A stretch of 64,000 nt of DNA from Phaeobacter sp. 22II1-1F12B (GTDB lineage Bacteria; Pseudomonadota; Alphaproteobacteria; Rhodobacterales; Rhodobacteraceae), in assembly GCF_002210165.1 (NCBI RefSeq), contig NZ_AQQP01000004.1, forward strand, positions 124,001-188,000. The letters are read 5' to 3'. The notes beneath the pieces are model-generated. The model ran no database searches. It saw nothing but the letters and a program-made list of their open reading frames with translations, and was not told the DNA's origin. Within the stretch, counting starts at the first letter, position 1; each line of letters starts with the position of its first letter. The position numbers were made by a program, and so were the translations under genes. Shown here one piece after another: positions 16,714 through 19,340 of the stretch.

Positions 16714-17784
16714 TCAGATTTCGACTTCCACCCGGCCGATGGGATGGGAACAGCAGGCAAGCACGTAGCCATCCTCGATATCGTCGTCTGTGATGCCACC
16801 GTTGTGAACCATGTGGACCTGACCCGACCGCTTCTTGATCTTGCAGGTTCCGCAGACGCCGAAGGTACAGCCAGACGGGATGTTCAGCCCGGCAGCGCGC
16901 GCCGTAGACAGGATGGTGTCTGTCTCGTTGCATTTCTGCGTGACGCCGGACAGGGCAAATTCGATCTCGGCCAGTGCCGCGTCATCGGGAATGACGTCAT
17001 CCGCCGTGGCATCCTTGGCTTCTTCTGCCAGCGAGGGATGAAAGCTTTCCTGATGGTAATGGGCCATGTCAAAGCCGAGCCCGGTCAGCGCCTCACGAAC
17101 CGCTTGCATGAACGGCTCAGGTCCGCAGCAGAACACTTCGCGTTCAAGGTAGTCTGGCGCCATGAGGCCCAGCATCAACTGGTTGAACGTGCCCTGATAG
17201 CCCGTCCACGGTTGATAGCGGTCACCTTCTTCGACGACCCACCGCAATTCGATCCCGTCGATACGGCTGGCGATATGTTCCAGCCGCTGCCGAAAGACGA
17301 TGTCCGAAGGACGTTTTGCGCAATTGATGAACACGACATCCGGGATGCGGCCGATGTCATACATGTAGGTGAGCATCGACATCATCGGCGTGATGCCGGA
17401 ACCCGCCGAAATGAAAAGGAATTTCTCGGCCGGGTGGTGGTGTGACGTAAAGTTGCCGGCAGGGCCTATGGCCTTGAGCCGCATCCCCGGACGCAGGTTG
17501 TCTCGCATCCATTGCGTACCGACGGAGCCGGGCTGCGCCTTTACCGTTACGGTGATCGAGACGGGGCGCGAGGGCGAGGAGGAAATCGTGTAGGTCCGGT
17601 GCAACGGCCCCCCCGGTACAGGCAGTTCCAGTGTCAGGAATTGCCCCGGGAGGTAGTCGAACGTTGCCCCTGACGGCGCGACGAAACAGAAAGTGGACAC
17701 GTTTGGCGCCTCTGGGATGACCGATACGCATTCCAGCATTTCCTGTCCGTCCCAGTAGGCGGGAGCGATTGAATCCTTTGCCAT
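16714..17784 (-). CDS. gbcB: Glycine betaine monooxygenase, reductase subunit
   Basis: This reductase takes electrons from NAD(P)H through FAD and a ferredoxin-type cluster to the Rieske oxygenase. The 356-residue protein has an FAD-binding domain with HRTYTISSSP, a nucleotide-binding GSGITPMMSML segment, the CCGPEPFM motif, and a C-terminal plant-type 2Fe-2S domain with C-x4-C-x2-C (CTFGVCGTC) plus a later LACC. It starts 3 nt after the gbcA stop. The family also serves other methylamine and stachydrine demethylases, so the substrate is assigned mainly through its partner. Confidence 0.82.
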   Translation of the reverse strand: MAKDSIAPAYWDGQEMLECVSVIPEAPNVSTFCFVAPSGATFDYLPGQFLTLELPVPGGPLHRTYTISSSPSRPVSITVTVKAQPGSVGTQWMRDNLRPGMRLKAIGPAGNFTSHHHPAEKFLFISAGSGITPMMSMLTYMYDIGRIPDVVFINCAKRPSDIVFRQRLEHIASRIDGIELRWVVEEGDRYQPWTGYQGTFNQLMLGLMAPDYLEREVFCCGPEPFMQAVREALTGLGFDMAHYHQESFHPSLAEEAKDATADDVIPDDAALAEIEFALSGVTQKCNETDTILSTARAAGLNIPSGCTFGVCGTCKIKKRSGQVHMVHNGGITDDDIEDGYVLACCSHPIGRVEVEI

Positions 17785-17787
17785 TAT

Positions 17788-19020
17788 TTACTCCGCTGCC
17801 AGTCGGACGGGATCAAGGCGCGACCCCAGCGTGTTGCAATACCAGTTGACGAACTGGTTGACCCCGGTTTCCTGAATGCTCGAATACGGGCCGGGTTCGT
17901 AGGAGGGCGAATTGATCCCGATCTGGTTGTCTTCGACGACGCGGCGATCTTCGTCATTGGTTGCAACCCAGACTTCGGTTAGTTTTTCCAGATCGTAATC
18001 GACACCTTCGACCGCGTCCTTGTGGACCAGCCATGTCGTCTGAACTTCGGTCTGCTGCGGCCCGATCGGTGTAACGCGGAACGTGATCGAGTGATCCGGC
18101 AGGAAATGGTTCCACGTGGTCGGGTAGTGGAACTTGAGCAGAGAACCCGCGTCATCGAAAGGCACGCGACCAAGGCGCCGTCGGACCGCGATGTCGCCCG
18201 ACATCGTGTAGCTTTTCGCGCCTACTTTCAGTGGCATGCGTGCGAGGCGATATTGCCCTGCCGCGTCGATGTGGAAGCGCGAAGGAAGATTTGCGTTTTC
18301 GCAACGGTCGAAATGGGCTGCAAGCGCGGGCGGCGTATCTCCCTCTTCGACGCCGGTCACGGCCGGATCATCAGGGAAGGTACGGCAAAGCGCCGGATGG
18401 TTGCCGCCGCAATGGTAGCATTCACGGTTGTTTTCCCAGACCAGCTTCCAGTTGCCTTCTTCAACAATCGTGCTTTGGTACGCGATCTTGGCATCGGACA
18501 GACCATGGGGCGCAAGATAGGGTTCGGCCAGCGCGGCAAAGGCGTCGAAATCCGGTGCCTGATCGGCAAGACAGATGTAAACCAACCCGGCCAGTTCGCG
18601 GCAGTGGATCGGCTTGAGGCCATATTTTGACGCGTCGAAATCCGGACCCATGTCCCGTGCCCAGAGCAGTTTTCCATCCAGCTCGTAGGTCCACTGGTGG
18701 TAGGGGCAGACCAGTTTCGGCACATGACCCGAGGCAGCTTTGCAAATGATCGAACCACGATGCCGGCATGTATTGTGGAAGGCGCGGATCACGCCATCCT
18801 GACCCCGGATGATGACGATTCCATAAGCGCCGATCCGATGCGTGACATAGCTGCCGGTTTTCGGCAGAGCGCAGGCCGGAATGGCGTAGAGCCAGTCGCG
18901 ACAAAAGATTTCCTGAATGTCCAGAGAGAAGATATCCGGATCGCTGTAAAACGCTTGTTCCAGCGAGAAGCCGGGCTTGCGCCGGGATAACAGGTCACGC
19001 GTATTGGCCTCTGCGTTCAT
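17788..19020 (-). CDS. gbcA: Glycine betaine monooxygenase, Rieske oxygenase subunit
   Basis: GbcA-type enzymes oxidise one N-methyl group of glycine betaine to give dimethylglycine and formaldehyde. The 410-residue protein has the Rieske cluster motifs CRHRGS and CPYHQW. The mononuclear-iron region is [12 protein letters not shown]. It closely follows the GbcA pattern I recall for Pseudomonas, including [18 protein letters not shown] and [18 protein letters not shown] site precedes the ATG. A cobalamin riboswitch lies 174 nt upstream on the same strand. Stachydrine demethylase (Stc2) is a close relative and remains an alternative. Confidence 0.83.
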
Positions 19021-19182
19021 GGCCGAACTCCGATTCCGGGCGCATGGCCCGATTGCATGTTATTCTGCGAATGGCGCAAGGAAACGGGCCGCCTAGCCGA
19101 GGATACCGGCATGACAAAGCGCCGCCTCCACCGCCGCCCGCGGTTTGACGTGATGCCAGGCTGGTTTCCGGACTTGGAAAAC

Positions 19183-19196
19183 CCGGACATGTCCGG
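19183..19196 (-). promoter_or_regulatory. Palindrome at the end of the cobalamin aptamer, candidate expression platform
   Basis: The 14-bp palindrome CCGGACATGTCCGG overlaps the last base pairs of aptamer stem P1. It is followed on the minus strand by GGTTTTCC and, 11 nt on, another GTCCGG copy. It could form a terminator-like or competing stem. The short U-run makes a classical terminator uncertain. Confidence 0.45.
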
Positions 19197-19340
19197 TGTT
19201 TCGACGCCTTCCCAAGGGTCTCCTCCCCAGTGGCCAATGTCGAAACCAGCGCTTTCCTTACCGTTGCGGGGGCAGTTCCGGATTTACACCGGCTTCCCAA
19301 TTCTCGGTCTTTCGACCGCACCCAACATCTGTCGAACACC
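19195..19340 (-). ncRNA. Cobalamin (B12) riboswitch
   Basis: Read on the minus strand, the element has the B12 aptamer core in order: GGGAAGCCGGTG, AAATCCGGAACTGCCCCCGC, AACGGTAAGG, and GGAGACCCTTGGGAAGGC. The closing stem P1 is formed by GGTGTTCGAC and GTCGAAACACC at the two ends. It is followed on the same strand by gbcA, whose start codon is 174 nt further on. Such riboswitches normally lower expression when adenosyl- or methylcobalamin is abundant. Confidence 0.93.

Follow-up and report, generated by a model that had tools for sequence, protein, structure and literature searches.

What does a cobalamin (vitamin B12) riboswitch control when the gene behind it encodes a Rieske oxygenase? 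The question is raised by a 64,000-nt stretch of the Phaeobacter sp. 22II1-1F12B genome (contig NZ_AQQP01000004.1, positions 124,001 to 188,000; hereafter the window), in which a cobalamin aptamer on the minus strand is followed by an oxygenase gene and a reductase gene. An earlier note on this DNA had proposed that B12 represses a glycine betaine monooxygenase, GbcAB, and so switches betaine demethylation between an O2-dependent and a corrinoid-dependent enzyme. The computational analysis reported here leads to a related answer: cobalamin probably switches off a betaine demethylase that depends on O2 and serves as a backup to the corrinoid MtgB/MtgC/MtgD route. The features concerned are as follows.

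19142..19340, minus strand: cobalamin riboswitch aptamer (RF00174), oxygenase-linked subtype with the CTGCCCCCGCAACGGT core, located by Rfam cmscan
19130..19144, minus strand: P13-like hairpin ACCGC-GGGCG-GCGGT, candidate regulatory kissing-loop stem, overlapping the 3' edge of the aptamer match by 3 nt
19028..19032, minus strand: Shine-Dalgarno-like CGGAG, candidate translational-control site, read from the sequence 7 nt 5' of the ATG
17788..19020, minus strand: Rieske oxygenase of 410 amino acids, group Vb quaternary-amine demethylase (Stc2/GbcA-like), assigned from the open reading frame (ORF), profile matches, residues and tree
16714..17784, minus strand: GbcB-like FAD/NAD/[2Fe-2S] reductase of 356 amino acids, beginning 3 nt after the oxygenase stop

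A complete cobalamin riboswitch before the oxygenase gene

The Rfam cmscan analysis of the window revealed a match to RF00174 of 101.8 bits (E 2.4e-24) over model positions 1-189 of 189, that is, a whole aptamer scoring above the family's gathering score of 31.5 bits. The earlier note had likewise read a complete minus-strand B12 aptamer with no gene between it and the oxygenase, and its outer limits, 19340 for the aptamer start and 16714 for the end of the reductase ORF, were correct; the distance from aptamer to gene, which it gave as 174 nt, was measured as 121 nt (19141-19021, up to the oxygenase ATG). Most of the conserved hairpin and the Shine-Dalgarno-like CGGAG lie within this gap.

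No terminator- or promoter-like site was found within 18900-19700. Transcription termination was rejected as the mechanism because this region lacks a terminator-like site, and translational control is favoured for the same reason. The minimum-free-energy folds of the leaders were too varied to agree on a single alternative structure, and therefore only the P13-like hairpin is claimed.

Conservation of the arrangement in relatives

The best 80 of 587 relatives, ranked by score, were taken as the locus set and all were scanned with Rfam. A cobalamin riboswitch on the same strand was located upstream of the oxygenase homologue at 26 of the 80 loci and was not located there at the other 54; because the set comprises the best-scoring of the 587, this fraction is not a population rate. 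The riboswitch loci include Sulfitobacter, Ruegeria, Shimia, Leisingera, Roseibium, Labrys, Rhizobium and Pacificispira, and 25 of the 26 upstream riboswitches scored 80.9 to 125.9 bits. At locus L025, a decayed remnant of 32.0 bits (4720-4766) still lies 5' of the oxygenase gene, apparently a loss in progress.

Two of the four plasmid copies checked by Rfam also carried the riboswitch, namely those of the Ruegeria TM1040 megaplasmid (L158, 109.7 bits) and Phaeobacter gallaeciensis pGal_C110 (L163, 119.3 bits), and none was found by Rfam for the plasmid copies of Sinorhizobium meliloti AK83 (L164) and Sagittula P11 (L165). A fifth plasmid copy, from Tritonibacter (L159), was positive by nhmmer. 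Riboswitches initially recognised by pattern were used to build the nhmmer model, and Rfam served as the independent check; the positives L135, L136, L139, L143 and L159, and likewise the riboswitch-minus calls of the family-sample genomes described below, were made by nhmmer and not by Rfam.

Two genome samples were searched with the nhmmer model. In the family sample of 120 genomes, the homologue was present in 23, of which 10 had the riboswitch. In the phylum sample of 299 genomes, the riboswitch was detected at 7 (L132 and L134-L139) of 15 further non-GbcA loci (L132-L142 and L144-L147; one further match without a locus, G401:C1:2736546, was left out), and all four of the loci then run with Rfam (L132, L134, L137, L138) were confirmed. 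The 13 loci over the GbcA cut-off (L119-L131) gave no riboswitch match by nhmmer. In Roseibium aquae, one contig carries two oxygenase copies, L016 with the riboswitch and L082 without it, and the latter adjoins an old-yellow-enzyme-like gene and a TetR-type gene.

The association as a chance or local accident was rejected, since only 4 cobalamin riboswitches, the window's among them, occur in the 5.53-Mb genome and the same order recurs in the 26 loci. Service to another gene was also rejected, because no gene lies between and the riboswitch stays with the oxygenase in relatives with different neighbours. The riboswitch-oxygenase link that the earlier note had wished to see in related genomes is thus present, both among the best loci and on the plasmids.

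A riboswitch subtype associated with the oxygenase

The core of the oxygenase-linked aptamers reads CTGCCCCCGC(A/G)(A/T)C-G-GT, and its G was present in 27 of 27 aptamers (the window and the 26 loci). The corresponding position is T in all seven of the other cobalamin riboswitches compared, which are those listed by nhmmer in the same set, with the own-genome copy in L004 left out. A stem search recovered the hairpin, in the form ACCGC-GGGYG-GCGGT with a GG-containing loop, at the 3' aptamer edge in 29 of 36 leaders; the search prefers GGG loops and picked another stem in the remaining 7. Compensated P13-like stems were seen as ACTGC/GCAGT in L163 and as GGATCGC/GCGATCT in L086. Passages of PMC5282855 describe a regulatory stem at this place in cobalamin riboswitches, the loop L13 of which pairs with L5, and the P13-like hairpin is a candidate for this stem.

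Mapping of the riboswitch label onto the gene tree (135 tips, including a few duplicate genomes) gave 11 parsimony changes, whereas shuffled labels averaged 38. Because of the core G subtype and the covarying P13-like hairpin, the element is apparently a dedicated switch for the oxygenase, co-inherited with it.

Identity and substrate of the oxygenase

The oxygenase scored 503.8 bits against the NCBIfam GbcA equivalog NF058607 (cut-off 670) and the reductase 381.7 bits against the GbcB equivalog NF058606 (cut-off 500); none of the 10 matches in the own genome passed the GbcA cut-off. The best PDB match of the oxygenase was 3n0q (714 bits), deposited as a putative aromatic-ring hydroxylating dioxygenase. 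Its sequence agrees at all 406 of 406 residues with WP_011536837.1 from the TM1040 megaplasmid, and the latter protein shares 70% identity with the window oxygenase; a riboswitch-led family member thus already has a crystal structure. The next PDB matches were 3vca, which we take to be Stc2, and 4qup, labelled monoxygenase/demethylase (652 bits each). In a 140-sequence tree, the riboswitch-linked proteins group on the Stc2-like side, and the 13 GbcA sequences over the cut-off lie apart from them. In view of the score and the Stc2-like branch, the name gbcA stands on weaker ground than the earlier note assumed.

Group Vb oxygenases are recognised by the Rieske Cys/His pairs, a His-His-Asp iron site, a Cys pair and an Asn that replaces the Tyr of group Va (passages of PMC7948474). 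The window oxygenase has all of these (C85/H87/C105/H108, N198, C201, H203, C204, H208 and D356/D358), and the listed residues are invariant across 44 rows of the riboswitch group. Among 77 other rows, D356 was variable in 11 and D358 in none, and either is a candidate for the iron-binding Asp. The own-genome paralogue L088 has Tyr where the window oxygenase has Asn. With the group Vb signature intact and sarcosine oxidase genes adjoining some relatives, a role of the pair in cobalamin biosynthesis is less likely.

The same switch might govern an oxygenase for another substrate, proline betaine (stachydrine) or a further betaine, with another MTTB-family (MtpB-like) methyltransferase as the counterpart. 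Stc2, a stachydrine demethylase according to passages of PMC7948474 and PMC10952381, is the best functionally named PDB match after 3n0q and shares its branch with the oxygenase outside the GbcA clade, and the presence of up to 16 MTTB genes in riboswitch genomes means that several betaines may be handled. The residues point elsewhere. The product contacts of Stc2 are Ala223 and Trp353 (PMC10952381, Fig. 1D legend). Position 223 is Thr in the window oxygenase, in 39 of 43 members of the riboswitch group, in 9 of 13 GbcA and in 8 of 11 sarcosine-oxidase-adjacent relatives, whereas 7 of the 9 Stc2-group sequences have Ala there. Position 218 is Asp or Glu throughout the riboswitch group (43/43), Glu in all GbcA (13/13) and Leu in 8 of the 9 Stc2-group sequences, and position 353 has the same commonest residue in all six groups compared. 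Because the riboswitch group is GbcA-like at positions 218 and 223, these residues favour glycine betaine over stachydrine without proving it; many other positions of the same segment separate GbcA from all remaining groups. Moreover, some riboswitch-minus relatives adjoin genes for sarcosine oxidase, an enzyme of the glycine betaine pathway, and a gene close to the pGal_C110 copy is annotated as a glycine betaine ABC transporter substrate-binding protein. Stachydrine or another betaine as the substrate seems unlikely. Glycine betaine is the probable substrate, and only probable because the oxygenase falls short of the GbcA cut-off and belongs to the Stc2-like branch.

The cobalamin regulon and the B12-dependent counterpart

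Apart from the window's, the cobalamin riboswitches of the own genome lead nrdI (L151; PF07972), followed by ORFs interpreted as nrdE and the beginning of nrdF, and, at L152 and L153, genes read by eye as cobalt-uptake, CobF, CobW and CobN. The genome also encodes NrdJ at another site (C77; 599.1 bits against a cut-off of 399.95).

The earlier note had suggested a corrinoid-dependent counterpart and a search for mtgB-like genes, and homologues of MtgB, MtgC and MtgD were indeed found. The MtgC homologue (C31:11494-12186) has 80% identity to the Roseibium protein, the MtgD-like pterin-binding protein (C13:132758-133534) has 79% over residues 25-280, and two MTTB proteins are encoded, so that a B12-dependent counterpart is predicted in the same genome. 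The MtgD-like protein matches in two stretches (C13:132470-133534), the second in another frame with a stop; this frame break reflects an error in sequencing or else a damaged 3' end. According to passages of PMC12478193, mutants of Ruegeria pomeroyi show that MtgC, a cobalamin protein, and MtgD, a pterin protein, are needed for glycine betaine demethylation and also for methionine synthesis, MTTB-family proteins are proposed as MtgB, and genomes with GbcAB and without MtgBCDE have canonical MetH. The B12-dependent partner that matters here is the aerobic MtgBCD system, which shares MtgC and MtgD with methionine synthesis.

Genome content was compared for 50 of the 80 loci (all 26 with the riboswitch and 24 of the 54 without) and the 23 family-sample genomes. 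After four genomes occurring twice were counted once, 69 distinct genomes were available, all with the oxygenase, 35 with and 34 without the riboswitch; G091, which has two oxygenase copies, one with the riboswitch, was counted as riboswitch-bearing, and of L016 and L082 from the same assembly only L016 was used. MtgC was present in 34/35 riboswitch genomes versus 24/34 of the others, MTTB in 35/35 versus 25/34, and both together in 34/35 versus 23/34, with a median of 4 MTTB copies versus 1. Simple Fisher tests gave p values of 0.003 for MtgC and 0.0009 for MTTB, which overstate the case. At two Roseibium loci, L010 and L016, an MtgC-DUF1638-Virulence_fact-(unassigned, 299 aa)-pterin-binding (MtgD) cluster is oriented divergently to the riboswitch-oxygenase pair; the cluster was identified by scan in L010 and by clustering in L016.

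Neighbourhoods of the pair in relatives

Many of the neighbour gene names come from clustering and reading of the sequences, and some were profile-scanned. A LysR-type cluster was present at 31 loci, 30 of which have no riboswitch, and a divergent LysR gene stood directly before the oxygenase at 25 of the 54 loci without the riboswitch versus 0 of the 26 with it. Other riboswitch-minus loci have an AraC-type or TetR gene, together with sarcosine oxidase or old-yellow-enzyme-like genes. Such loci, and the decayed copy in L025, would fit the idea that the riboswitch in the window is a relic or of no important effect and that the pair is driven otherwise. The window copy is, however, full length with its core and P13-like stem intact, and the identified neighbouring ORFs are flagellar genes, not regulators; this idea is very improbable.

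The riboswitch loci have variable neighbours, several of them B12-related. Genes of the nrd type with their own cobalamin riboswitch adjoin the riboswitch-led pair in L032, L148 and L154 (partly by eye), and nrd genes with no riboswitch in view are near the pair in L011, L013 and L021; in L046 and L083, nrd genes are near a pair that has no riboswitch. The gene metH is near the pair at the riboswitch loci L078, L148 and L154. On the minus strand of L154 (G118, C214), riboswitches were located at 10884-10691 and 4292-4107, and the same-strand order is riboswitch, oxygenase, reductase and metH in two pieces. The second riboswitch leads nrdH, nrdI, a short cobalamin-independent methionine synthase and nrdE (nrdH, nrdI and nrdE by eye), and the short synthase is core-MetE-like (NF005085, 413.8 bits, cut-off 313; PF01717). 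This locus looks like a B12-shortage island. In L148 (G092, C25), three cobalamin riboswitches occur in 3.3 kb (3510-6750), before nrd genes, the oxygenase pair and metH.

Further cobalamin riboswitches were seen near the pair in L012 (9589-9795), L029 (2846-3060) and L011 (4532-4332, minus strand). In L029, the next same-strand gene encodes a metal-type ABC ATPase (best NCBIfam match AztA, below the cut-off). In L011, the second riboswitch leads another gene with an ORF of the L029 ATPase cluster downstream, and the nrd genes extend past the end of the locus.

These neighbourhoods raise the possibility that the pair serves methionine and one-carbon supply in B12 shortage more than betaine breakdown itself, with formaldehyde from betaine supplying folate to MetH or core-MetE and MtgC being spared. 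The gene order behind both riboswitches of L154 fits this view, as do metH genes near the pair in L148, L078, L008, L024 and L155 (L078, L008 and L024 by clustering, L155 by eye) and the finding that R. pomeroyi uses MtgC and MtgD both to demethylate betaine and to make methionine (passages of PMC12478193). However, metH adjacency is a minority pattern, three such loci lack the riboswitch (L008 and L024 by Rfam, L155 by nhmmer), and the pair in the window stands alone. We regard this possibility as rather doubtful.

Proposed control by cobalamin

The analysis establishes the riboswitch and the conservation of its position, the group Vb signature of the enzyme and the occurrence of both demethylation routes in the same genomes. 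For the control of the pair by cobalamin, the direction would be repression, as expected from the riboswitch class, and the mechanism would be translational. When cobalamin is plentiful, it would bind the leader, the P13-like loop would dock, the ribosome-binding site would be masked and the pair would be silent; betaine, most likely glycine betaine, would then be demethylated by MtgB/MtgC/MtgD to give methyl-tetrahydrofolate. When cobalamin is short, the oxygenase and reductase would be made and would demethylate betaine with O2 and NAD(P)H, yielding formaldehyde and making no demand on cobalamin, and scarce holo-MtgC could be spared for methionine synthesis. The logic would be that of the riboswitch-repressed B12-independent isozymes MetE and NrdEF. 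As for the switch that the earlier note had envisaged, its B12 link is real and kept in relatives, and its glycine betaine substrate holds only as probable.

Several observations weigh against this proposal. The oxygenase is under the GbcA cut-off and closer to Stc2, and the Shine-Dalgarno region of the window differs from the conserved leader of the relatives. MtgC also occurs in most genomes without the riboswitch, and the riboswitch genome G118 (84% complete) has no MtgC match. In 7 phylogenetically independent pairs, the riboswitch member had more MTTB copies by 6 to 1 (p 0.125) and MtgC differed in 1 of the 7; because of these paired contrasts on the gene tree, the association of the riboswitch with MtgC and MTTB is weak once relatedness is considered and is suggestive only. 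B12 need not be the only signal, because at the pGal_C110 copy the riboswitch occurs together with a divergent LysR gene. Finally, the B12-dependent metH is under similar control in L154 and L148, which a pure B12-independent backup does not predict and which complicates the proposal. Such control of metH, seen in these two genomes, suggests that the regulated unit is a general B12-shortage response, in which betaine methyl groups perhaps serve folate and methionine needs.

Beyond the control of the pair in the window, we lean towards a broader picture, in which a distinct cobalamin-riboswitch lineage has been passed on together with a betaine oxygenase in much of the Alphaproteobacteria, cobalamin status picks the demethylation route for a major marine osmolyte, and in some genomes the pair is part of a B12-shortage island (nrd, core-MetE and metH, led by or running on from cobalamin riboswitches). 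If this is true, B12 supply would set the route, the need for O2 and the entry of methyl carbon as methyl-folate or formaldehyde, and a catabolic enzyme would join the riboswitch-controlled B12 bypasses.

Surroundings in the window

The oxygenase-reductase pair is embedded in a same-strand run of flagellar genes, with the following neighbours.

19528..20622, minus strand: flgI, upstream neighbour (NF003676, 426.8 bits, cut-off 300)
15836-16633: ORF of 265 amino acids between flhA and the pair
13745..15832, minus strand: flhA, farther downstream (TIGR01398, 842 bits, cut-off 772.1)

Elsewhere in the window, a flavin mononucleotide (FMN) riboswitch of 108.4 bits was located at 4839-4987 on the plus strand, within the 5' part of a 340-amino-acid ORF that ends in lumazine synthase; the real start of this gene is probably downstream. 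A second Rieske oxygenase, of 576 amino acids with a LigXa_C domain, lies beside a glutamine synthetase-like gene at 26450-29677 on the minus strand.

Comparison with known systems

The earlier note knew of no well-described example of such control, and the literature searches likewise found no published description of a link between a cobalamin riboswitch and a betaine oxygenase, although mention in older B12-element surveys or their tables is possible. No such link was found in the portions consulted of PMC3766115, PMC8123684, PMC5282855 and PMC5948670, supplements aside. The main text of PMC3766115 has no match for betaine, oxygenase or Rieske, and PMC12478193 contains the word riboswitch once only, in a reference title about glycine.

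The pair shares with GbcAB of Pseudomonas and Chromohalobacter the two-component architecture, the group Vb Asn and the residues at positions 218 and 223, but it is below both equivalog cut-offs and forms a separate clade, and the 13 GbcA loci are those negative for the riboswitch by nhmmer. Stc2 of Sinorhizobium meliloti is the nearest functionally characterised PDB relative of the oxygenase and lies on the same tree branch, whereas its residues 218 and 223 differ; the seven loci that group with Stc2 (L033, L035, L054, L057, L058, L059 and L068, the stc2 locus itself not being among them) have a divergent LysR gene and no riboswitch by Rfam. MtgBCDE of R. pomeroyi acts on glycine betaine (passages of PMC12478193) and has MtgB, MtgC and MtgD homologues in the own genome; as a cobalamin-needing corrinoid methyltransferase, it is the proposed counterpart of the oxygenase pair and not its relative.

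The closest parallel in control is with the B12-independent isozymes behind cobalamin riboswitches, MetE and class I ribonucleotide reductases, which have the same aptamer family and presumably the same logic, with the nrdI case in the own genome; isozymes of B12-dependent enzymes form a regulon category in the consulted part of PMC3766115. In contrast to MetE and NrdEF, the target here is a catabolic oxygenase, the chemistry, electron source and one-carbon product of which differ from those of the enzyme that it would replace.

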